A DNA stretch of 64,000 bases from Lachnospiraceae bacterium (GTDB lineage Bacteria; Bacillota; Clostridia; Lachnospirales; Lachnospiraceae), in contig JAILRA010000033.1 of assembly GCA_024698715.1 (NCBI GenBank), positions 1 to 64,000 of the forward strand, in the 5' to 3' direction. The notes under the pieces are model-generated. The model did no database searches. It had not been told where the DNA came from and saw nothing but the letters and a program-made list of their open reading frames with translations. A program made the translations under genes and the position numbers. Below, in pieces: positions 51,468 through 64,000 of this stretch. Numbering within the stretch: position 1 is the stretch's first letter; each line of letters opens with the position of its first letter.

Positions 51468-52643
51468 CTATTCGGTATCGCTCTTCCACGCCACTTCCGG
51501 ATTGGGTCTGGGTGCATTGGAACGATCGATCATCTTATCTTTCGGTCGTAATTTTATTTCGTCTCTCAAAGTGGATTTTCTGCCGTCATCCCTGTAAGTG
51601 GTATTCTCGGATGAAGCTTTGTGGATCTGTCTTCCGTCCACTCTTTCGGATTCCGTGATCCCGTATCCCGAATGATAATTGATCTTTTTCTGATTCTCAT
51701 ACATTTCTTTTCCCGTCCAGTATTCGGGAAGAGAAGAACATTTCTTCACTAGCCATTTCGGCAGGAATTCATACATATATCCCAGTCTGTATCCGAGATA
51801 TTTGAAACCGCTGTTTATTATCAGTTTGGGTATCAGAATACTCTTTTTTCTTTTTTTCAGATGGGCTATCGTTCTGCTTATAAGCTTTTTTCCTTCTCCG
51901 ACGGAAGAAACGCTTTTGAATATCTCGGGATGATCGGACTGCGACACACCGAGATCGAAATTTCTTTTAAATAACGCTATATTGCCGTAATCATGAGAAT
52001 GGATAACTTCCGCATTCGCCGTATAAGCTATCTTGTATCCTGTCTTGATCGCGTGTGCGGCATACACCATATCTTCGTTAAAGATAATGTATTCTTCAAA
52101 TCCGCCGAGTTTATCATATACTTCACGATTGTATGCTGCACAGACATTTGAGCAGAAATACGCTTTAATACCCATTTCCTTCACATCCGCTTCGCCTTTC
52201 AAAACCGACTTTCTCGGATAATTGAAGTTTCTGGTAAATTTTTCTATTTCATTCGAACTTCTTTTGGCTACCTGTCTCGCATATGACACTACGGCTTTTT
52301 CCGTTATCAGCGGATTGATAAGCCTCTCGATCATTTCCTCGTTTTTCGGAACCGCATCATCGGTCATCATAACGAAGATATCCGCTTCCGATCTGAAAAC
52401 TCCGTCCCTTCTGGTACGACCGTGGTTGAACTCCTTTTTCGAGATATGCGTTACATGGATATTGTCATACGCTTTATCAAGAGGATGATTATACATGAGA
52501 GACGTGTAATACTGTTCTTCTGTATTCATCACTATTATTCTGTTTATCGGGTATGTCTGTTTTTCCAGCATTTCGACGAGTTTTATAAACGATTCGCCGG
52601 GTTTGTATGCAGGAATTATGACATCTACTGTCGGATTGTTCAT
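51468..52643 (-). CDS. Family 2 glycosyltransferase, rhamnosyltransferase-like
   Basis: 391 residues. GT-A fold: VDVIIPAYKPGESFIKLVEMLEKQTYP at the start, FNHGRTRRDG and a DDA metal motif in FVMMTDDAVP. SNVCAAYNREVYDKLGGF is the acceptor-side region. After about residue 260 comes a region with an amphipathic helix and a low-complexity polar C-terminus. It probably adds a sugar, perhaps rhamnose, to a surface polysaccharide. Confidence 0.88.
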   Translation of the reverse strand: MNNPTVDVIIPAYKPGESFIKLVEMLEKQTYPINRIIVMNTEEQYYTSLMYNHPLDKAYDNIHVTHISKKEFNHGRTRRDGVFRSEADIFVMMTDDAVPKNEEMIERLINPLITEKAVVSYARQVAKRSSNEIEKFTRNFNYPRKSVLKGEADVKEMGIKAYFCSNVCAAYNREVYDKLGGFEEYIIFNEDMVYAAHAIKTGYKIAYTANAEVIHSHDYGNIALFKRNFDLGVSQSDHPEIFKSVSSVGEGKKLISRTIAHLKKRKKSILIPKLIINSGFKYLGYRLGYMYEFLPKWLVKKCSSLPEYWTGKEMYENQKKINYHSGYGITESERVDGRQIHKASSENTTYRDDGRKSTLRDEIKLRPKDKMIDRSNAPRPNPEVAWKSDTE

Positions 52644-52708
52644 GCTGCCCTGTTAAACTCTCTGTACAATATACGTTTACTTAAGTTTATTTTTATGTAA
52701 TATATTTC

Positions 52709-52739
52709 AAAAAGGTCTCCATATGCAAATATGGAGACC
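52709..52739 (-). terminator. Terminator of the LCP gene
   Basis: GGTCTCCATAT/ATATGGAGACC, an 11-bp perfect stem (52714-52739) with a 4-base loop, then TTTTTG on the minus strand. Confidence 0.92.
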
Positions 52740-52747
52740 GCTTCATT

Positions 52748-53890
52748 TTACTTTCCGTATCTGGCCGCTTCAGCTTTTATATCTGAACTGGTCTTTATAA
52801 CTGTTTCGGAAGGAGTATATGTAATACTTGGATCGGGATATAAAAATCTGTGAAGCTCCTCTACATTGCTCTGTAAATCAACGGGAATTACACAATCACC
52901 TTTTGCTCCCAAAAGTCCGGTTGTAATCTTATCATCAAACGGGAAACCTCTTGATGCCACTATTTCATATTTTCCCACATCCGAAGCCATAGGGATAATA
53001 TCATTGTTAAGATCCATATTTGTGGCAACCAGAGGGAATACATCGTTACAGATCTTTGAGATCTTTATGGGATCGAGCTTTTTGGATTTGCTTACGATCT
53101 GTGTTACAACATCTCTCTGTCTTTCTGTACGTTTGAAATCGTTTCCGGCTGTATAACGGATACGACAATATGCCAGAGCCTGATATCCGGACAAAGTCTG
53201 AAGTCCTGTATTGGTAATGGGAACATAATTGTCTGTAATAACGGTATTGGTTTCCGTAGAGTACATGGAAGCCTGATAATCGTTCAGGTACTTGATCTCA
53301 TTCTGCTGGATATCGATATCCACGCCGCCGACAGCATCAACCGTTTTCATAACGCCGTCAAAACCAACAGTAATAAACTGCGTAATGTAAAGATCGAGGT
53401 TCTGGTTAAGCATATTAAGGGCTCTTTCGGGTCCTCCGTATGCATATGCCGCATTACACTTCGAATATGAAGGTTTGTCCTGAGTACCAATATTAAGAAG
53501 CGTATCTCTGTAAATACTGCAAAGACGCGTTTCTCCTGTCTCATTGTCTATGGCACAGATGATGATGGTATCTGTTCTTGTTCCCTTTTCAAGAGTGCCG
53601 TTTCTTGCGTCAACTCCGAAGAAAGCAAGTGTGGTATAACCTTTTCTGATCTCTTTTACTGTCGGATCGTCTTCTTCGACATTAATGATAATGTCTTCGG
53701 GTTTGATATCGTATTTCTGAACGCCTGTTTCCTCGCCGGTTCCTCTGAACACGAAAATCATTACAACAATCACGGCGATGAGCACTACCGCTTCAACACC
53801 GATGATTATGTTTCTTATTACTTTGTTTCCGCTGTTTTTCTTCTTCTTTCTTCTCTTTACGCCTGCGGATGAGGGTCTTTTGTTCGCCAT
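52748..53890 (-). CDS. LytR-CpsA-Psr (LCP) family wall-polymer ligase
   Basis: 380 residues with a basic cytosolic start (VKRRKKKKN), a transmembrane helix (about 25-50), and an extracellular LCP domain (about 85-320). FFGVDARN, GTRTDTIIICAID, RLCSIYRDTLLNI and GYQALAYCRIRYTAGNDFKRTERQRDVV hold the Arg and Asp residues that bind the pyrophosphate lipid. It transfers a polysaccharide from undecaprenyl pyrophosphate to peptidoglycan, consistent with the polymer-building genes upstream. Confidence 0.94.
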   Translation of the reverse strand: MANKRPSSAGVKRRKKKKNSGNKVIRNIIIGVEAVVLIAVIVVMIFVFRGTGEETGVQKYDIKPEDIIINVEEDDPTVKEIRKGYTTLAFFGVDARNGTLEKGTRTDTIIICAIDNETGETRLCSIYRDTLLNIGTQDKPSYSKCNAAYAYGGPERALNMLNQNLDLYITQFITVGFDGVMKTVDAVGGVDIDIQQNEIKYLNDYQASMYSTETNTVITDNYVPITNTGLQTLSGYQALAYCRIRYTAGNDFKRTERQRDVVTQIVSKSKKLDPIKISKICNDVFPLVATNMDLNNDIIPMASDVGKYEIVASRGFPFDDKITTGLLGAKGDCVIPVDLQSNVEELHRFLYPDPSITYTPSETVIKTSSDIKAEAARYGK

Positions 53891-53929
53891 ATTATAAACT
53901 TTCTACTTACAAAAATTAAAAGTAGCCTC

Positions 53930-55330
53930 CTAGTACGCATTTTTATTAATAAATCCTTTTACAAACGTAAGCAGGATAATTTGTATATCAAGCCAAATGG
54001 TCCAGTTTTCTATATAATATATATCATATTCGACTCTTTTTCTTATGGAAGTATCACCGCGGTATCCGTTCACCTGAGCCCATCCGGTAAGTCCCGGACG
54101 AACCTGATGCTTAACCATATATCTGGGGATCTCCTCTTTAAACTGCTCTACAAACTGCGGTCTTTCCGGTCTCGGACCGATAAGAGACATATCACCTTTA
54201 AGAATATTGAAAAACTGAGGAGTTTCATCCAGACTGGTCCTTCTCAAAAACTTACCGAATCCGGTAACTCTCGGATCGTCTTTGGTAGTCCACTCTTTTT
54301 CCTCTTCCTCGGGTTTCTGCTCAACCATGGTTCGGAATTTATACATCTTAAAGGTTTTGTTGTGAAGTCCCACTCTCTCCTGAACAAACAATACCGGTCC
54401 GTCTTTATGACACTTGATCACGATCACTGAAAGTATCATAATGGGCGAAAACAGTATGATCGCCACAAGTGAGCCAATGATATCTACTGCTCTTTTAATA
54501 TACCAGTTGAATGTGCTTGTAAGCGGTACTCTTCTGATATTGATCACGGGAAGTCCCGACAGATCTTCTGTATAAGGTTTTGAAGGAATGACCGAATTGT
54601 AATCGGGAATAAACTTTGTATGCACACCCGATTTCTCGCATCTGGCCACTATTTCCTCAAGTCTTTTGTAATTCTTAAGAGGAAGTGCAACGGCAATCTC
54701 ATCAAGCTTGTTCTGAGGAAGTATCACTTCGAGATTGTCTATCCTTCCGAGTACCTGAATTCCTTTATAATATGTTCCCGCCGGAACTTCGTCATCCAGT
54801 ATACCCCTGATCTCATATCCCCACTGGGGATTGACGAGGATTCTGTCTATGTATTGTTCGCAGGCCCTCGAATATCCTACTATAACAACCTGTTTCGAAT
54901 TATATCCTTTCTTTCTGATATAATTCAAAATCTTTCTTACTATCAGTCTGTAAAGACTCATCAGAAATACATTTCCGAGTGCGAAGAAAATGATCAGAGA
55001 TCTCGAAAAATACTTCTGATTGATCAAATACAAAACTACAAGGAAAATCATGGCACCCACAACGTTTGCCTTTACGATGTCGACAAACTCGTTCAGCCAT
55101 GAAGCCATTCTCTTGGGTTTGTACAGATTAAGCGTGGCGAAAACCGCCAGGTAGCCCGGTATAATAAAATACAACGCAAAAAAGTAAGTTTTCATCGGCA
55201 AAACACCCTGGTTTACCGGTGTGAAAACCACCATTCTGCCATACCATGCACATATATATGCAAAAGCGGTTACAATGCAATCAAGCACTACATGAAATCT
55301 GTTAAAAAATGTTTGATTGTCTTTAATCAT
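53930..55330 (-). CDS. Undecaprenyl-phosphate glycosyl-1-phosphate transferase (WbaP/CpsE type)
   Basis: 466 residues: four N-terminal transmembrane helices, a Rossmann-like CoA-binding-type domain (about 145-260, VVIVGYSRACEQYID), one more helix and the catalytic sugar transferase domain (about 275-466) with KRAVDIIGS, PVLFVQERVG, KMYKFRTM, RRTSLDETPQFFNILKGDMSLIGPRPE and QVRPGLTGWAQVNG. It starts polymer synthesis by moving a sugar phosphate onto the lipid carrier. It is the first membrane step for the cluster of glycosyltransferases here. Confidence 0.95.
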   Translation of the reverse strand: MIKDNQTFFNRFHVVLDCIVTAFAYICAWYGRMVVFTPVNQGVLPMKTYFFALYFIIPGYLAVFATLNLYKPKRMASWLNEFVDIVKANVVGAMIFLVVLYLINQKYFSRSLIIFFALGNVFLMSLYRLIVRKILNYIRKKGYNSKQVVIVGYSRACEQYIDRILVNPQWGYEIRGILDDEVPAGTYYKGIQVLGRIDNLEVILPQNKLDEIAVALPLKNYKRLEEIVARCEKSGVHTKFIPDYNSVIPSKPYTEDLSGLPVINIRRVPLTSTFNWYIKRAVDIIGSLVAIILFSPIMILSVIVIKCHKDGPVLFVQERVGLHNKTFKMYKFRTMVEQKPEEEEKEWTTKDDPRVTGFGKFLRRTSLDETPQFFNILKGDMSLIGPRPERPQFVEQFKEEIPRYMVKHQVRPGLTGWAQVNGYRGDTSIRKRVEYDIYYIENWTIWLDIQIILLTFVKGFINKNAY

Positions 55331-55403
55331 AATTCAACTTTGCGCCATATTACAGACGCCCTCAAATTGTAATAATACAATAAATTGCCTTTTTTTTCAA
55401 GCA

Positions 55404-56369
55404 TTAATAAATGACATTTTTTATCAGTTCCCATTCGACGGCAAGTGCTCTTTTTCTTTTGGCAGAATCAAAATCTACCTTTTTACTGCGTTCTTCAGCT
55501 GTTTTTTTTACGCGCCTGCCCTCTCTGATCCCCTGTCGGTATGCTTTGCCAAGTCCCTTATTGATGAAGTATATCTGCTTTATGATAATTCCCGTTTCCA
55601 TTGCCGGAAAATTGATTATCTTTTGAAGCACTGTCTGGTTTTTGTATCTGACGAGTATGGAATTTCTCGCCGCATATCTTACCTTGAATTCGTTATGTCT
55701 TGAACCGGACGTTGCACTTCCTTCATGAAATACACGTGCGGAGGGTTCATATTTATTGACATATCCGTAAAGTTTTGCCCTGTATCCGATATCCACATCC
55801 TCAAGATAGGAAAAATGATTCTCGTCGAACAGTCCCAGTTCAAGAAGAATGCTTCTTTTATATATTGCCGCCCCGGCACATGCGGAAAAGATCTCAGAAG
55901 GTTTGTTGTTGCTGTCAGCAAGCTTGTTCTTTCCTCTGGTCCTCGCCCAGCCGAGAATATTGTAAAAATCTCCGGCATTGTCTATCAGCGCATGGTTAAC
56001 CGCCGAAAGCATTTTGCACTGCACGGAGAAAGTATTTGAATATTGACCGTCTTGCTCAATGGCATTAAGGATTGCCTTAAGACACCCTTCATCCACATAA
56101 GCATCATTATTTAAAAGAAATACATACTCCGAATCGGAAGCTTTTATCCCATCGTTGACCGCTGCCGCAAATCCCAGGTTCACATCATGTTTGATGAGTC
56201 TCGCTCTCGGAAATCCGGCAACGACCGATTCAACGCCTTCCTCAGTCGAAGCATCATCTACAACAATAATATCGTAATCCCGAAAATCCTGTTTTTCGAG
56301 TTCTTCGAGACATTTGACAAGATATCGTATCCCGTTGTAATTGGGTATAATAACGCTTAATTTCATCAA
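55404..56369 (-). CDS. Family 2 glycosyltransferase (GT2)
   Basis: 321 residues. KLSVIIPNYNGIRYLVKCLEEL at the start, DDAS for UDP or dTDP sugar binding, FLLNNDAYVD as the DxD-type motif, and FSYLEDVDIGYRAKLYG as the acceptor and base region (the ED pair). Similar to rhamnosyl- or galactofuranosyltransferases. It begins 8 bases after the upstream glycosyltransferase gene. Confidence 0.92.
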   Translation of the reverse strand: MMKLSVIIPNYNGIRYLVKCLEELEKQDFRDYDIIVVDDASTEEGVESVVAGFPRARLIKHDVNLGFAAAVNDGIKASDSEYVFLLNNDAYVDEGCLKAILNAIEQDGQYSNTFSVQCKMLSAVNHALIDNAGDFYNILGWARTRGKNKLADSNNKPSEIFSACAGAAIYKRSILLELGLFDENHFSYLEDVDIGYRAKLYGYVNKYEPSARVFHEGSATSGSRHNEFKVRYAARNSILVRYKNQTVLQKIINFPAMETGIIIKQIYFINKGLGKAYRQGIREGRRVKKTAEERSKKVDFDSAKRKRALAVEWELIKNVIY

Positions 56370-56377
56370 ATGTTCCC

Positions 56378-57781
56378 TTATTCCTTCTTATGATCGGGAT
56401 CGTAAATAATCCTGTAACCAAGCTCTCTCACCCTTTTGCAGAATGCAAGGCTGATGCCGACATAATCCGGTGCATTCTTGGCAAGTTTCGATTCGACCAT
56501 ATCGTCATAAAGATTTTCCAAAACGGGATTGATCCTCATGTTTCTTATATCTGCGGCTTCAACCTGCTGCACAAGAGAACCTCTGTGCATATATCCGCCC
56601 ATGCCTTTTGCCAGTCCGCGGTAAACCACCGAACCGTCTTCACGCATCGCTCCGCCGGAAATTTTACCGAATTTGTAGATCGGACCGCAGAGCATTCCGA
56701 TATCAGGTCTGGTCGAAAAGAGAAGATTTTTATATTCGATATGATAAAATCCAAGATGCGCCGTATGACTGACCGTTACGGCCCAACCCATTTCCTTACA
56801 GTAATCATCGACCGCTCTTCTTCCGGCCTCGTAAGCATATTCCTTTGCATCGGTATTGCCGGCCGTTGATAAAGCATGGCATCTCCAGTGATAAAGGATC
56901 TTCGGAACGTGAAGCGTCTGTCCTTCGGGGTCTTCCATGGCTCTCAACGCTCTTAAATAAAGATCGTAATCCTGTGCACCGTCATATTCGGATCTGAACC
57001 TTAATTCCTGTATGAGTTTCCTTTCCAGAAAAGTCAGATGACAGATATAATTATTCGTCAGGATCATATCCATATTCAGATTGGCTTTTCTGTTGGGTTC
57101 GTAAAATGTCTTGCCCTTTGCATCAGTTTTGTCTTCATCCGAATAGATAAGTTTTGCCTTGTATTCATTGCTTACCAAAGCCTTAGACATATAATAAAGC
57201 GCATCCGGTGTAAGAAGATCGTCATGATCGAGGATTCCGACATAATCACCTGTTGCAAGGTCTATTCCCTGATTACAGTTGGCGGAAATACCGCCGTTTG
57301 TCGTCAGGTGGACGTATTTGATGACACAGCCCTCGTAATTGTATGTTACATCCATATCTACCGAGAGCCTGTAATTTTTTCTGATCTCTTCAAGTGAAAG
57401 GCTTTTTCCTGCGGGTATGTTCCCGTCAATGACACCGGCTATTCTTTCGATCTCATCAACGATCCTCATGGTTCTCGAACCGTCAACAATTATCATTTCC
57501 CAGTTGTTGTAGGTCTGTCCGAGAACGCTGGCCAGCATTTCATCAAAATATAATGAATCCGTCTCATATGTAGGAACTACAAGCGTAAATTTTATACTCG
57601 AAGAAAATCTCTTGCTCCAGGCTCTCTGAGCCTTCAGTTCTTCAGTTGTCGCAAGCTGATATTTAAAATTCTTGGGAGCTTTGCTCAAAGCGGTATCCGC
57701 AACGGCCATCGCCGTTTTTTCAATCCCGTTTCTTTTTAAATATCTGTTCGCTTTGCCGTATAAATCCCCTGCACTGGCCAT
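56378..57781 (-). CDS. Family 2 glycosyltransferase (GT2), longer form
   Basis: 467 residues. An N-terminal helical extension (about 1-60) precedes the GT-A domain: FTLVVPTYETDSLYFDEMLASVLGQTYNNWEMIIVDGS, GGISANCNQGIDLATGDYVGILDHDDLL (DHD metal motif), and YSDEDKTDAKGK. The C-terminal part (about 330-467) may form a second small domain. It acts upstream of the shorter GT2 on the same transcript. Confidence 0.92.
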   Translation of the reverse strand: MASAGDLYGKANRYLKRNGIEKTAMAVADTALSKAPKNFKYQLATTEELKAQRAWSKRFSSSIKFTLVVPTYETDSLYFDEMLASVLGQTYNNWEMIIVDGSRTMRIVDEIERIAGVIDGNIPAGKSLSLEEIRKNYRLSVDMDVTYNYEGCVIKYVHLTTNGGISANCNQGIDLATGDYVGILDHDDLLTPDALYYMSKALVSNEYKAKLIYSDEDKTDAKGKTFYEPNRKANLNMDMILTNNYICHLTFLERKLIQELRFRSEYDGAQDYDLYLRALRAMEDPEGQTLHVPKILYHWRCHALSTAGNTDAKEYAYEAGRRAVDDYCKEMGWAVTVSHTAHLGFYHIEYKNLLFSTRPDIGMLCGPIYKFGKISGGAMREDGSVVYRGLAKGMGGYMHRGSLVQQVEAADIRNMRINPVLENLYDDMVESKLAKNAPDYVGISLAFCKRVRELGYRIIYDPDHKKE

Positions 57782-59653: not shown

Positions 59654-60088
59654 TTATAAACAAGTTATTCCCCAGCCGAGATATAGGATGTTTCTTATTA
59701 TCCATTGTCCCAAAAGGACTGCAATTCCCACATAAATAGAGTATGTTATCGGGAATCCGGTAAAGCCCAGTTTTTTCGTGGTTTTGACCAATATGGTGTT
59801 GATCATGAAAAATGTATAATCAACAAAAGTATACGGCACAAACGGATGGCAAAGGAAACTCTTGATGAAATGACCGTGAATCAGATGATATACACTCCTC
59901 GTTCCTCCGCATCCCGGGCAATACAGATGAGTTATCATAAGAAAACCGCATTTCATTCCGCCCTTTGTGAGAAAATCACCGAAAAAGATAAATACCGGAA
60001 TTATAACGGCAACTATACATACACCGAAAACTATTCCCAGTTTAAACCACGTATCGGTCAGATCATCCTTAAACTCTCTTTTTTCCAT
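59654..60088 (-). CDS. DUF2752 membrane protein
   Basis: 144 residues, three to four transmembrane helices. The DUF2752 hallmark HLYCPGCGGTRSVYHLIHGHFIKSF is at residues about 50-75: a CPxCGxxR pattern at a membrane edge, possibly binding metal. Function unknown. 8 bases after the DUF4190 gene. Confidence 0.88.
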   Translation of the reverse strand: MEKREFKDDLTDTWFKLGIVFGVCIVAVIIPVFIFFGDFLTKGGMKCGFLMITHLYCPGCGGTRSVYHLIHGHFIKSFLCHPFVPYTFVDYTFFMINTILVKTTKKLGFTGFPITYSIYVGIAVLLGQWIIRNILYLGWGITCL

Positions 60089-60096
60089 ATCTCTTA

Positions 60097-60636
60097 TCAG
60101 GAGTTATTAATAATTGAGATGATTACCAAAATCAGGTATATCAATACTATCAGTAATGAAATCACCGTACCGATAATACTGATTATCATACCGGCCGTAG
60201 CAGGTCCTGCTGCTTTCTTCTTTTTGGCAACGATGCCGAGGATCATACCTACCAGACCGAAAATAAAGTTCAGGCAGGGTGTCCAGCAACATACGATTGA
60301 AAGAATACCGAGAATAAGTGAGGCAATCGAAAGTCCTTTTCCGCCTCCGGCATTTTCCTCATTATCCTCATAGGAATCATTGTAGCTGTATGTTACTTCT
60401 TCAGCTGCTTCCTGTACAGGCTGAGGTGCAGGTGCGGGCTGAGGTTCGGGAGCAGGCTGAGGTGCTGCCTGAGGTGCGGGTGCGGGCTGTGCCTCCTGTA
60501 CCGGCTGTGCTTCTGCCTGAGGTGCAGGTGCGGGCTGTGCCTCCTGTACCGGCTGTGCTTCTGCCTGAGGTGCGGGTGCAGGCTGTGCTTCCTGTACCGG
60601 CTGTACGGGTGTTTCGTTCAGATTGTTGTTATCCAT
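60097..60636 (-). CDS. DUF4190 membrane protein with Pro/Ala/Gln repeat N-terminus
   Basis: 179 residues. Residues 10-75 are a proline-rich tail with a 16-residue repeat (PVQEAQPAPAPQAEAQ, 2.8 copies). Residues about 97-175 are the DUF4190 domain with two hydrophobic hairpins (LSIASLILGILSIVCCW and GMIISIIGTVISLLI). Likely a small membrane protein with a flexible cytosolic or external tail. RBS AGGAGG not obvious: GGAGG lies 8 bases before the ATG. Role unknown. Confidence 0.85.
   Translation of the reverse strand: MDNNNLNETPVQPVQEAQPAPAPQAEAQPVQEAQPAPAPQAEAQPVQEAQPAPAPQAAPQPAPEPQPAPAPQPVQEAAEEVTYSYNDSYEDNEENAGGGKGLSIASLILGILSIVCCWTPCLNFIFGLVGMILGIVAKKKKAAGPATAGMIISIIGTVISLLIVLIYLILVIISIINNS
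60466..60600 (-). repeat. 48-bp tandem repeat in the DUF4190 gene
   Basis: 2.8 copies of a 48-bp unit (residues 13-28, 29-44, 45-57) with near-identical DNA. Such arrays often change copy number. Confidence 0.85.
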
Positions 60637-60685: not shown

Positions 60686-63600
60686 TTATACATGACTTAT
60701 ATCGGTATACATTGCAAGATCCGTGTCTATTGTACAGATATCATTGAGATTGAGATCATGAACATTGTTATGACCGGTACTTCTGCAGATTTCCTTGAGA
60801 GCTTCCGTCATACTGTTGGCCATATCAATATTAAATCCTCTTTCAACCAGTACAAAGTTTGCTCCGAGAGCAAGGATCTTTGCAAGTTCCTGCGCATCTT
60901 TCAAAGCTTCAACGCATACAAGGATCTCAAGTTTTGAATTAACCCTGTTAAGATAATTTCTTGCTCTTCTTAATGCGTAAGGAAGTATTCTCGAAGATAC
61001 ATCGTTAAGTATTACGAAATCAACCTTTGCATATACACATGCCTCAAGATCTGCTTCGATTCTTCCGGCAACAAGATCGATACCTACGGGAGTTCCGTTA
61101 AATCTTACTTTTGCGATCTCAACTTCTTCTCTTAATTCTTCCTTGCTGGAAAGATTGGGTATATGTCCTTCTTCACCCTTTACCAGAACAAGTGCCTGAT
61201 TGGTGTATTTCTCGGGTTTTGAATTGTTGGGAATATGTTCTCCCCAAATAAACAGTTTCGAGAAACAGAAAGGCTGAAGAACTTCTACGGGGCAGGATGT
61301 AAGTGCACCGATAACAGTCTTGGTATCCACATATGCGTTTCTCTTTAAAGGAAGAGGATTGCACTGTGCGGGAAGAAGGATGATATTTTCAAGACCGTTG
61401 GAAACATTACCGTCAACCAGACTGTAATCATCAAATATCTTCTGAGCTTCCGTATCGTAAAGAACCGTATACTTGGTATCTCTCTTAAGCATCGAGTAGG
61501 CAACGGGTTTTCCTTCTTCGTTTACTTCGCTCTCATCAAGACAGATATAACCTCTCTGGTCTTCTGCACTTTCTTCAGCTGCTTCATTTTCATTTATTTC
61601 TTCTGAAGTTTCAGTTTCTGCGTTTTCTTCAACGCTTTCTTCCGGTTCTTCAGCTACTGCTTCATTATCTTCCGAAACAACACCTGCAAAGAAAGGAACG
61701 GCTCCTGCTACAGTATCTTCTGTATTCTCTTCTGCTGCAACTTCTTCTGCGGCTTCTTCTGTAATTTCATCTGCTACAGTTTCTTCGGCGATTGCTTCAG
61801 GTTCTGCAGCCTCTTCAGTTTCAACTGCTTCTTCGGTAGCTTCTTCTAAGGCTTCTTCTGCAACTTCTTCAGCCACAGTTTCTTCTATACTTTCTTCTGC
61901 AATTGTTTCAGATTCTGCAGTCTCTTCGGTTTCAGCAACTGCTTCTTCTGTGGTTTCCTCTGCTGCTTCTTCTGCTGCAGATCCTTCCGTACTTTCTTCT
62001 GCAACCGCTTCTTCTACAGTTTCTTCAACGATTGCTTCAGGTTCTGCAGTCTCTTCAGTCTCTTCGGTTTCAACTGCTGCTTCTTCTGTGGTTTCCTCTG
62101 CAACTTCTTCGGCTGCAGGTTCTTCTATACTTTCTTCAGCTACTGCTTCTTCTACAGTTTCTTCAACGATTGCTTCAGGTTCCGCAGTCTCTTCTGTTTC
62201 AGCTGTTGCTTCTTCCGTGATTTCCTCTGCTGCTTCTTCAGTTGCAGGTTCTTCTGTACTTTCTTCAACAACTGCTTCTGATACAGTTTCTTCAACGATT
62301 GCTTCGGCTTCTGCTGCCTCTTCGGTTTCAACAGTTTCTTCTGCGTTTTCTTCTGTTTCAACTGCTGCTTCTTCAGCGTTTTCCTCTGCAGTCTCTTCTG
62401 CAACTTCTTCTGTAATTTCTTCTGCGGCAGCTTCTTCTGTTACAGCGTCTTCAAAGATTGTTTCAAATTCTTCCGCTGCTGTTTCTTCCGATACTGCTTC
62501 AGCAGCAGGCTCGGTGTTTTCTGACGCTTCTTCGGTCACTTCATCTGAAATCTCATCAGGATTGGAAGGTTCTGTAAAGAAATCGTCTTCCGTTTCCGCC
62601 TCTTCATCGCCGAAGTTAAGGAATACCACTCCTTCGTCATCCGGTTCGTTGGCTTTGATTTCTCCCGAAACACTTTCTGTTTCTTCAGAAATGCTTTCGC
62701 TGATCTCTTCTTCAACAGACTCCGCAACTTCATTTTCGGGTATTTCAACGTTTTCTTCTGCAACCTCATCGGTTTCTGCTACAGTTTCTTCTGTTTCCGT
62801 TGCAACTTCTTCGGTTTCTGTTGCAGTTTCTTCTGTTTCCGCTGCAACCTCTTCAGTTTCTGCTGCAATTTCCTCGGTTTCTGCTGCGGTTTCTTCGTTT
62901 TCTTCAAACGAATCGTTATAGTTTTCGACCGGTGCTTCCTCGAAAACAAGTTCTTCGGAATCATCAATCATCGGTTCACTTGAACCATCGGAAGTTTCAA
63001 CTTTTTCGGCACCTACTACTTTTTGTACTGTACCCAGTCCGTTGCCCCAAAGAGGAACGAAATCGTTTTCTTTATTCTTGGCTTCTTCTTCAGCCCTTAA
63101 TTCCTCTTCCGTCTTTACGGATGAGCCGCTTGTATAGAATGTCTGGATCAGACTGTTTTCTTTATTCTCTTCTTTTTCTGCAAAATCTTCTTTCTCGGAA
63201 GTTTCGGGAGCAAAACCGTTATCATCCTGACCGATCACTCTTTGTACACTTCCTGTACGATTCAGGATAAATGCTGATTTTTCTTCTTTTGCGGGAACAG
63301 GCTCTTCCGTCTTGATTTCGTCATCCTTCTTCCAGAATTCCTGACGTTTTTCTATGACAAATCCTGTTTCTTCTTTCTTTTCAGGTTCTGAAGATTCAGT
63401 CTCTTCATTATTTGTCGTTTCTGAAGTTTCGAGTTCCGCATTATCTGCAGATTCCGTTACGCTTTCCTCAGTGTTCTGACTGTCGTTTTCTGCGGTAATC
63501 TCTTCCGGAACTTCTTCTTTTTCTTCGGTTTCCTCAAAAACTATCTCATCAAATTCCGTTTTTGACTCATTTTCAGCATCTGCTGAGGCTTCTTTATTTT

Positions 63601-64000
63601 CTTCGGAAGCATTCTCTTCAAGAACTTCATCGATAAAGTCCTTTCTGCCGTAACTTCCGAATTCGCTTACGGTTGAATATGAACTGCTCTTTTCTCTTTC
63701 TCTGAGAAAATCAGCAAAACTTCCCGAAGAAGTCTGTTCACTCTCGGATGTATTTTCTTCACCGGAGTCATCCTTGTTTTCCGCTTCGTTGCTTTCCTCG
63801 GATTTAACCTCTTCAGCTTCCTCAAAAACAAAATCATCGCCTTCTTCGGTTGTTTCCTCTTTTTGGGGAACTTCTTCCTCTTCGATTATTTTGAATTCGA
63901 TCTTTGACGCATCACAAACCGGACAACTGTACAGGTTGTCAAAGGACTCTCCGGCCTGCTGTTCGTCGAAAACATAACCACATACTTTGCATTCGTATTT
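60686..64000 (-). CDS. Rubredoxin-like / acidic repeat / glutamate-synthase-like (FMN barrel) fusion, 5' end outside the window
   Basis: The frame is open without a stop from 64000 to 60686, at least 1104 residues; shorter starts such as the GTG at 63238 are not needed. The visible N-terminus is a rubredoxin-type knuckle pair, YECKVCGYVFD and YSCPVCDASKIEF. Then come about 780 residues dominated by Glu, Ala, Thr and Val, including tandem repeats of about 43 residues. The last 289 residues resemble the glutamate synthase (GltB) FMN domain: IILLPAQCNPLPLKRNAYVDTKTVIG, then GHIPNLSSKEELREEV, GIDLVAGRIEADL and KVDFVILND. The usual MSFGALS and the Fe-S Cys region are replaced, so activity is doubtful. 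I infer a non-catalytic or scaffolding role. Confidence 0.8.
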   Translation of the reverse strand, partial: KYECKVCGYVFDEQQAGESFDNLYSCPVCDASKIEFKIIEEEEVPQKEETTEEGDDFVFEEAEEVKSEESNEAENKDDSGEENTSESEQTSSGSFADFLREREKSSSYSTVSEFGSYGRKDFIDEVLEENASEENKEASADAENESKTEFDEIVFEETEEKEEVPEEITAENDSQNTEESVTESADNAELETSETTNNEETESSEPEKKEETGFVIEKRQEFWKKDDEIKTEEPVPAKEEKSAFILNRTGSVQRVIGQDDNGFAPETSEKEDFAEKEENKENSLIQTFYTSGSSVKTEEELRAEEEAKNKENDFVPLWGNGLGTVQKVVGAEKVETSDGSSEPMIDDSEELVFEEAPVENYNDSFEENEETAAETEEIAAETEEVAAETEETATETEEVATETEETVAETDEVAEENVEIPENEVAESVEEEISESISEETESVSGEIKANEPDDEGVVFLNFGDEEAETEDDFFTEPSNPDEISDEVTEEASENTEPAAEAVSEETAAEEFETIFEDAVTEEAAAEEITEEVAEETAEENAEEAAVETEENAEETVETEEAAEAEAIVEETVSEAVVEESTEEPATEEAAEEITEEATAETEETAEPEAIVEETVEEAVAEESIEEPAAEEVAEETTEEAAVETEETEETAEPEAIVEETVEEAVAEESTEGSAAEEAAEETTEEAVAETEETAESETIAEESIEETVAEEVAEEALEEATEEAVETEEAAEPEAIAEETVADEITEEAAEEVAAEENTEDTVAGAVPFFAGVVSEDNEAVAEEPEESVEENAETETSEEINENEAAEESAEDQRGYICLDESEVNEEGKPVAYSMLKRDTKYTVLYDTEAQKIFDDYSLVDGNVSNGLENIILLPAQCNPLPLKRNAYVDTKTVIGALTSCPVEVLQPFCFSKLFIWGEHIPNNSKPEKYTNQALVLVKGEEGHIPNLSSKEELREEVEIAKVRFNGTPVGIDLVAGRIEADLEACVYAKVDFVILNDVSSRILPYALRRARNYLNRVNSKLEILVCVEALKDAQELAKILALGANFVLVERGFNIDMANSMTEALKEICRSTGHNNVHDLNLNDICTIDTDLAMYTDISHV
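61700..62420 (-). repeat. Acidic tandem repeats (about 130 bp unit) in the rubredoxin/glutamate-synthase-like gene
   Basis: At least four units of about 42-45 residues of the type EPEAIVEETVEEAVAEES followed by (I/T)EEPAAEEVAEETTEEAAVETEETA. Neighbouring units are highly similar at DNA level, so unequal crossing-over is likely. Confidence 0.75.

Follow-up and report, generated by a model that had tools for sequence, protein, structure and literature searches.

Among described proteins, the closest to the system considered here is CD0828 of Clostridioides difficile, which is presented in the accessible part of PMC11980386 as a protein of 480 amino acids (aa) with a rubredoxin at residues 1-48, a loop at residues 49-88 and a Cys motif at residues 398-409. 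The purified protein was reduced by NADH; its flavin mononucleotide (FMN) and its 3Fe-4S cluster, assigned to a C-x5-C-x4-C motif, are model-based predictions. Intact CD0828 transfers electrons slowly to Rbr and Sor, and its loss lowers the survival of C. difficile in H2O2 (PMC11980386, same part). The present analysis concerns a stretch of 64,000 nucleotides from a Lachnospiraceae bacterium (assembly GCA_024698715.1, contig JAILRA010000033.1, positions 1 to 64,000), referred to below as the window, and a gene at its end that joins a rubredoxin-type domain, a long acidic linker and a degenerate glutamate-synthase-type barrel. An even chance is given here to the reading in which an enzyme of the CD0828 type has turned into a pseudoenzyme and now acts as a genus-specific scaffold, disordered and bearing motifs, that ends on one side in a rubredoxin metal site.

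Architecture of the gene and its intact relatives

The gene and its two terminal domains are placed in the window as follows.

60686..64000, minus strand: the gene, window part (residues 3-1106 and the stop), from the open reading frame (ORF) listing and the contig beyond the window
63872..64000, minus strand: rubredoxin-type domain, residues 3-45 of 1-45, with four Cys arranged as C-x2-C-x18-C-x2-C, from Pfam scores and the Cys pattern
60689..61396, minus strand: relic of a glutamate-synthase-type FMN barrel, residues 871-1106, with a conserved C-terminal tail, from alignment, profile comparison and the ratio of nonsynonymous to synonymous substitution rates (dN/dS)

In the ORF listing of the window, the frame ends with a stop at 60686 and is open up to 64000. 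The contig (229,132 bp) extends past the window and holds the ATG at contig position 64006, 6 bases past the window end, with only Met-Ala lying outside; GGAGGG precedes the ORF start. The complete ORF counts 1106 aa and is free of internal stops and frameshifts. The initial annotation had proposed, from a frame lacking its 5' end, one intact gene for rubredoxin, acidic linker and degenerate barrel; the contig supplies the missing end, no stop or frameshift separates the rubredoxin part from the C-terminal part in its sequence, and the proposal stands.

The host genus consists of rumen and gut bacteria of the Lachnospiraceae and was represented by 31 genomes, the genome of the window included. 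In a search of 99 genomes the relic was found in 24 of these 31, or in 26 when two contig-edge fragments are counted, and near-full-length genes are present at 24 loci in 23 genomes. At two of these loci (L034 and L056) a contig end truncates the 5' end of the gene; the four-Cys pattern occurs in all 22 members that have this end. On the N-terminus PF00301 scored 24 bits in the genome search and 20.9 bits in hmmscan (cut-off 23), and RUBY_RBDX reached 26.2 bits in hmmscan against a cut-off of 26.5. The dN/dS of the domain is 0-0.073 in the 7 genus gene pairs where it is computable. A rubredoxin search of the genome of the window returned a separate small rubredoxin and this gene only. At the rubredoxin end the metal site looks intact and may have a structural, sensing or electron-carrying role.

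The same search gave weaker relic matches in 10 of 68 non-genus genomes. At all ten places PF01645 also exceeded its cut-off, and nine of the ten proteins have a rubredoxin-type start (judged by eye, with Pfam run on three of the ten). When the relic profile was applied at 1e-10 to 348 sampled genomes of the family, 67 matched, namely two of the genus and 65 others, and most of the non-genus matches lie in open frames of either about 430-520 aa or 667-723 aa; the two inspected from the longer class, L058 and L059, are described below. Two further non-genus frames, judged by length, are short (G229, 284 aa; G166, 288 aa). To judge only by frame lengths and the few proteins inspected, no other protein both long and decayed could be recognised in the non-genus members of the 348 genomes. 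CD0828 and the short Lachnospiraceae proteins have in common with the present gene the N-terminal rubredoxin, the domain order, a homologous C-terminal domain and the C-terminal tail. The sequence comparison was made with the short Lachnospiraceae proteins, and CD0828 is grouped with this intact set on the strength of its architecture, its length and the identical C-x5-C-x4-C spacing rather than by alignment of its sequence. The four-Cys rubredoxin itself differs in spacing, x18 here against x21 in CD0828 (PMC11980386, accessible part). With CD0828 the claim of the initial annotation that fusions of rubredoxin to a GltB-like FMN domain are known in anaerobes is confirmed, as far as that part of the source goes.

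Several intact relatives carry further domains. The tenth of the ten proteins mentioned above, from G094 (L065:5211-7064), joins an intact GltS-like domain to CDGSH iron-binding and Fer4_19 domains and has no rubredoxin. Two intact rubredoxin-GltS proteins end in a C-terminal rubrerythrin (L058:4615-6621, by Pfam; L059:4109-6205, from visual inspection of the alignment), a link between the intact family and peroxide defence. In G246 (L068:4711-7578) an iron-hydrogenase-like protein is fused to the intact rubredoxin-GltS module, 955 aa in a 962-aa frame (by eye).

Loss of the cofactor segments and selection on the relic

The last 277 residues alone gave no significant family or PDB match, and the C-terminus scored only 10.8 bits against Glu_synthase (PF01645), below the curated cut-off of 20.4. 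Homology becomes visible in profile comparison: hhalign aligned a profile of 18 genus members to one of 7 intact Lachnospirales proteins with probability 100 and E 4e-50 over 235 columns, and the intact-family profile in turn matches five distinct PDB glutamate synthase sequences (E 1e-42 to 4e-39) as well as rubredoxins. The GltB-like FMN barrel predicted at the C-terminus is thereby established, by way of the intact family, in the kind of HHpred comparison that had been proposed for it. PDB matches obtained for the relic itself in single-sequence and profile searches were set aside as chance (all E > 0.4). An AlphaFold model built for the relic with 11 close sequences is poor (pLDDT 52, pTM 0.57), with beta-alpha units in its second half; Foldseek with this model weakly returned mixed TIM barrels, with IMP dehydrogenase and hydroxy-acid oxidase first, PEP-mutase-like and transaldolase folds also in the top ten, and GltS (6s6s) only at rank 23.

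What has been lost was read from 25 genus loci aligned to 10 intact proteins; 132 columns of this alignment are invariant in the intact set (numbering of L061_57). Four internal blocks, 149-188, 226-252, 301-314 and 378-417, are gapped in every one of the 25 genus loci; a fifth gap run, at reference residues 46-96, results from the use of only the last 240 residues of the genus sequences and was left out of the count of deletions. The first block contains CSGEGG, the third DGRGGATG, and the fourth the C-x5-C-x4-C region with all three 3Fe-4S Cys. At the position of TGGLR, the T, the first G and the R are present in none of the 25 genus loci and the second G in five. The mid-barrel and the C-terminal tail TGHxxVxDLNxxDxCT....TDIxH are retained. 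From GltS structures we take CSGEGG, DGRGGATG and TGGLR to be FMN-site segments and the Cys region to be the 3Fe-4S-binding segment. For the Cys motif, this assignment agrees with the prediction published for CD0828 (PMC11980386, accessible part). The loss of key FMN-loop and Cys residues, suspected from the single sequence, is found at all 25 aligned genus loci, and the protein most likely no longer runs flavin chemistry of its own.

The tree separates the genus from the intact set with a local support of 0.80. The common deletions and this split fit a single loss of the cofactor sites, in the common ancestor of the genus. By PF01645 match span and frame length, the proteins themselves not being inspected, no short rubredoxin-GltS form occurs among the 31 genus genomes; the PF01645 matches there consist of full-length GltB-sized frames, a type of about 510 aa, fragments and weak matches.

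The relic is under purifying selection. Its dN/dS ranges from 0.014 to 0.079 in 11 genus gene pairs; the synonymous rate (dS) exceeds 1 in six of them, and the range is unchanged, 0.014-0.079, in the five pairs where dS is below 1. For the linker, the values in 11 pairs are 0.097-0.287 and depend on the alignment of repeats. Two of the pairs involve the 5'-cut L034, and two have saturated dS. Since the dN/dS of the relic is far below 1, the dead-looking domain has been kept by selection.

The acidic linker and its motifs

The linker occupies residues 46-836 (791 aa), with 33% E, 13% A, 10% T and a net charge of -263, and falls on the disordered side of the charge-hydropathy line. The linkers of the 24 near-full-length loci (the two cut at the 5' end included) measure 399-841 residues, with 24-35% Glu and net charges from -127 to -313. 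The following features have been located in it.

63332..63361, minus strand: motif m1, FVIEKRQEFW, residues 216-225, family form [FY][VT][IV]E[KR]RQ[ED]FW, from locus comparison, shuffled control and DNA-pattern scan
63230..63253, minus strand: motif m2, GSVQRVIG, residues 252-259, from locus comparison and shuffled control
63098..63154, minus strand: motif m3, SLIQTFYTSGSSVKTEEEL, residues 285-303, from locus comparison and shuffled control
63011..63061, minus strand: motif m4, FVPLWGNGLGTVQKVVG, residues 316-332, ending in a second m2-like segment, GTVQKVVG, from locus comparison and shuffled control
61712..62905, minus strand: Glu/Ala/Thr/Val repeat stretch, residues about 368-765, from repeat analysis
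61676..61708, minus strand: hydrophobic stretch AGAVPFFAGVV near the linker end, longer in several relatives, from linker comparison

About 780 residues of Glu/Ala/Thr repeats had been reported at first. An acidic linker of 791 aa is indeed present, but the repeats are found mainly in residues 368-765, roughly half of it, where the DNA shows periods of 129 and 267 bases. The description of the linker as a mere repeat has to be given up, as ordered motifs conserved in the genus lie in the stretch before the repeats. Their order, m1 to m4, is fixed across the genus loci; m3 is centred on TFY...VKT.EEL, and m4 has the form PLWGxGxGTVQKVVG. Motif m1 is present at all 24 near-full-length loci and in two contig-edge copies (G010, G012), that is, in 26 of the 26 copies that reach it. 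In a comparison of 10 distant members with 30 shuffles of their linkers, m1 scored 0.94 against 0.27, the GTVQKVV window of m4 0.57 and m2 0.51, against 0.26 each. The exact m1 DNA pattern, which misses the Tyr-initial forms of L046, L051 and L052, was found in 22 of 61 genomes, all of the genus, and in none of the 30 non-genus genomes scanned. It occurs once per genome except in G001, where two loci with the same relic score (L056 and L057, on contigs C21 and C68) possibly represent assembly redundancy or a strain mixture.

Conserved short motifs thus stand within an otherwise variable region that is disorder-like in composition, and such ordered motifs, conserved across the genus, point to specific binding rather than to an effect of bulk charge. 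An origin of m1-m4 as remnants of the inter-domain segment of the intact family was rejected, no profile match to that family being obtained. In the genome of the window, a search for a second protein with the linker motifs gave one weak match (E 0.13) in a chemoreceptor-like ORF, judged to be chance, and the acidic repeat was found in this gene alone at E <= 0.001. Ala/Gly/Val-rich hydrophobic stretches of about 20-26 residues are seen within the acidic linkers of L038, L039, L040, L041, L043, L048 and L053.

Weighing of the explanations and comparison with known systems

In the scaffold reading, the starting point would have been a protein of the CD0828 type, a rubredoxin with an FMN/3Fe-4S glutamate-synthase-like domain, whose cofactor sites were lost in the ancestor shared by the members of this Lachnospiraceae genus and which gained a long acidic linker. 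Partner proteins, one or several, would be recruited through RQEFW and the GTVQKVVG-type motifs. The relic of the barrel, whose tail is conserved, would provide a second end for docking or dimerisation. Fe or Zn would be bound at the rubredoxin end, which may act as a sensor or hand on electrons that a different reductase supplies. The appearance of a docking scaffold comes from two features, a variable acidic arm holding a strict motif and a conserved barrel end devoid of cofactor segments. The redox-linked scaffold suggested in the initial annotation is possible and comes close to this reading. A bolder form, held only tentatively, makes the protein a hub derived from a killed redox enzyme, in which a dead FMN/Fe-S docking end and a polyanionic disordered arm of about 800 residues with the strictly conserved RQEFW docking motif would be joined to a rubredoxin whose metal site, under redox or metal control, switches a complex or condensate peculiar to the genus.

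Several observations speak against the scaffold reading. No partner protein was found, and the disorder of the linker is deduced from its composition. Five of the 31 genus genomes (G009, G015, G017, G021, G028) gave neither the relic nor the exact m1; in G009, rated 95% complete, the gene may really be absent. The relic, for which the AlphaFold model is poor, could still have a ligand or a different cofactor. Windows from the acidic repeats score above their shuffles as well, though by less than m1 (e.g. 0.81 against 0.60). Conservation is lower for m2-m4 than for m1, and some subclades lack part of them: subclade B (L044-L050) has neither m2 nor the PLW part of m4, L052 has a degenerate GTVQKV part of m4, and in both L051 and L052 m3 is weak or missing. 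Finally, the neighbouring genes differ among the subclades, which leaves no operon pointing to a function.

The protein might instead still be a redox protein, its rubredoxin working as an electron carrier, e.g. to rubrerythrin-like peroxidases, with the linker and relic merely positioning it near a partner or a new reductase. This is rather unlikely, despite the four-Cys pattern, strongly selected and present in each of the 22 members that have the 5' end, the fusion of the intact module to rubrerythrin in L058 and L059 and to an iron-hydrogenase-like protein (by eye), and the H2O2 phenotype of C. difficile without CD0828 (PMC11980386, accessible part). The built-in reductase sites are gone, the genome of the window has a separate small rubredoxin, and inspection of the listed neighbours by eye revealed no oxidative-stress gene, no search having been aimed at such genes. 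Even intact CD0828 is slow toward Rbr and Sor according to the same part of that source.

An improbable explanation treats the linker as a bulk polyanion that buffers metal ions or polyamines, or solubilises or forms condensates, with the details of its sequence irrelevant. It draws on the net charges and linker lengths found across the 24 loci, and on codon adaptation, which in all four subclade B loci compared is higher for the linker than for all compared neighbours (for the relic in only two of four). This adaptation, measured against only 2-3 ribosomal genes per locus, is a weak hint of fair expression. The explanation, including the metal or polyamine buffer put forward at the outset, leaves m1-m4 and the strong selection on the relic unaccounted for.

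A membrane-linked envelope role, shared with proteins encoded downstream and perhaps mediated by the hydrophobic stretch of the linker, has very little probability. The two neighbours concerned are listed below; all other names of neighbouring genes were given by eye.

60097..60636, minus strand: downstream neighbour, Pro/Ala/Gln repeat and DUF4190-like membrane domain (Pfam, 29.5 bits, below the cut-off of 35)
59654..60088, minus strand: second downstream neighbour, DUF2752 protein (Pfam, 58.6 bits, cut-off 27)

In subclade A (the window and L034-L043), the target is followed by the DUF4190-like protein with its Pro/Ala/Gln arm, the DUF2752 protein and a phosphoglucomutase-like gene; apart from the window, all 10 of the 10 loci show this order. 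In subclade B, DUF2752 is close to the target at 7 of 7 loci; in L046 and L048, the two tested with Pfam, a DUF4190-like protein (below cut-off) stands between the two. The linker stretches of about 20-26 residues in several members would also suit a membrane link, but such a stretch is short or absent in many others, and none of the neighbours of the window occurs at the seven loci of subclade C (L051-L057).

The DUF4190-like neighbour has a long disordered-looking arm of its own, built from VQEAQPAPAPQAEAQP repeats in the window (60097-60636) and containing VDAPT..N-like segments in subclade B (L046:4531-5610; L048:7819-8745). The divergent upstream neighbour reads like truA, and about 1.8 kb upstream, past truA-like and proC-like genes, a 120-aa gene resembles an MntR/DtxR-type metal-dependent regulator (L003:7846-8208). 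Window positions 51468-57781 hold glycosyltransferase-, sugar-transferase- and LytR/CpsA-like genes (by eye), probably an exopolysaccharide cluster. Two compartment roles were rejected: encapsulin cargo, with PF04454 in none of the 31 genus genomes (many incomplete), and bacterial microcompartment cargo, with no PF00936 in the genome of the window (89% complete), the only one searched for it.

A decaying pseudogene or an assembly artefact, as repetitive DNA and a degenerate domain might suggest, is rejected in view of the long open frames at 24 loci in 23 genomes, Lachnospiraceae bacterium G41 among them, and of the relic dN/dS of 0.014-0.079, far below 1.

The long decayed form was not found described in the open literature searched, which is not proof of its absence from print. 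To our knowledge, pseudoenzymes turned scaffolds have mostly been described from eukaryotes. The gene is a candidate bacterial case of this passage, with the intact family still present in related genera, and combines clean cofactor-segment deletions, strong selection on a dead-looking domain and one motif in every copy reaching it. Its relic is distantly homologous, via the intact short family, to the glutamate synthase large subunit (PDB 1ea0, 1llw, 6s6s, 7mfm). In contrast to GltB, of which a glutaminase domain is part, the relic protein has no such domain, and its FMN-loop and 3Fe-4S segments are deleted. The difference from the CD0828 type lies in the deleted cofactor-site segments and in the acidic linker, which is about 800 residues long and contains new motifs; across the genus this linker has 399-841 residues, against a loop of about 40 in CD0828 (PMC11980386, accessible part). 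In its presumed way of working, with no sequence relation claimed, the arm may be compared with the C-terminal scaffold region of RNase E, which assembles a complex through several short linear motifs (PMC11964227, accessible part); unlike that region, the arm described here is attached to a rubredoxin at one end and an apparently dead barrel at the other.

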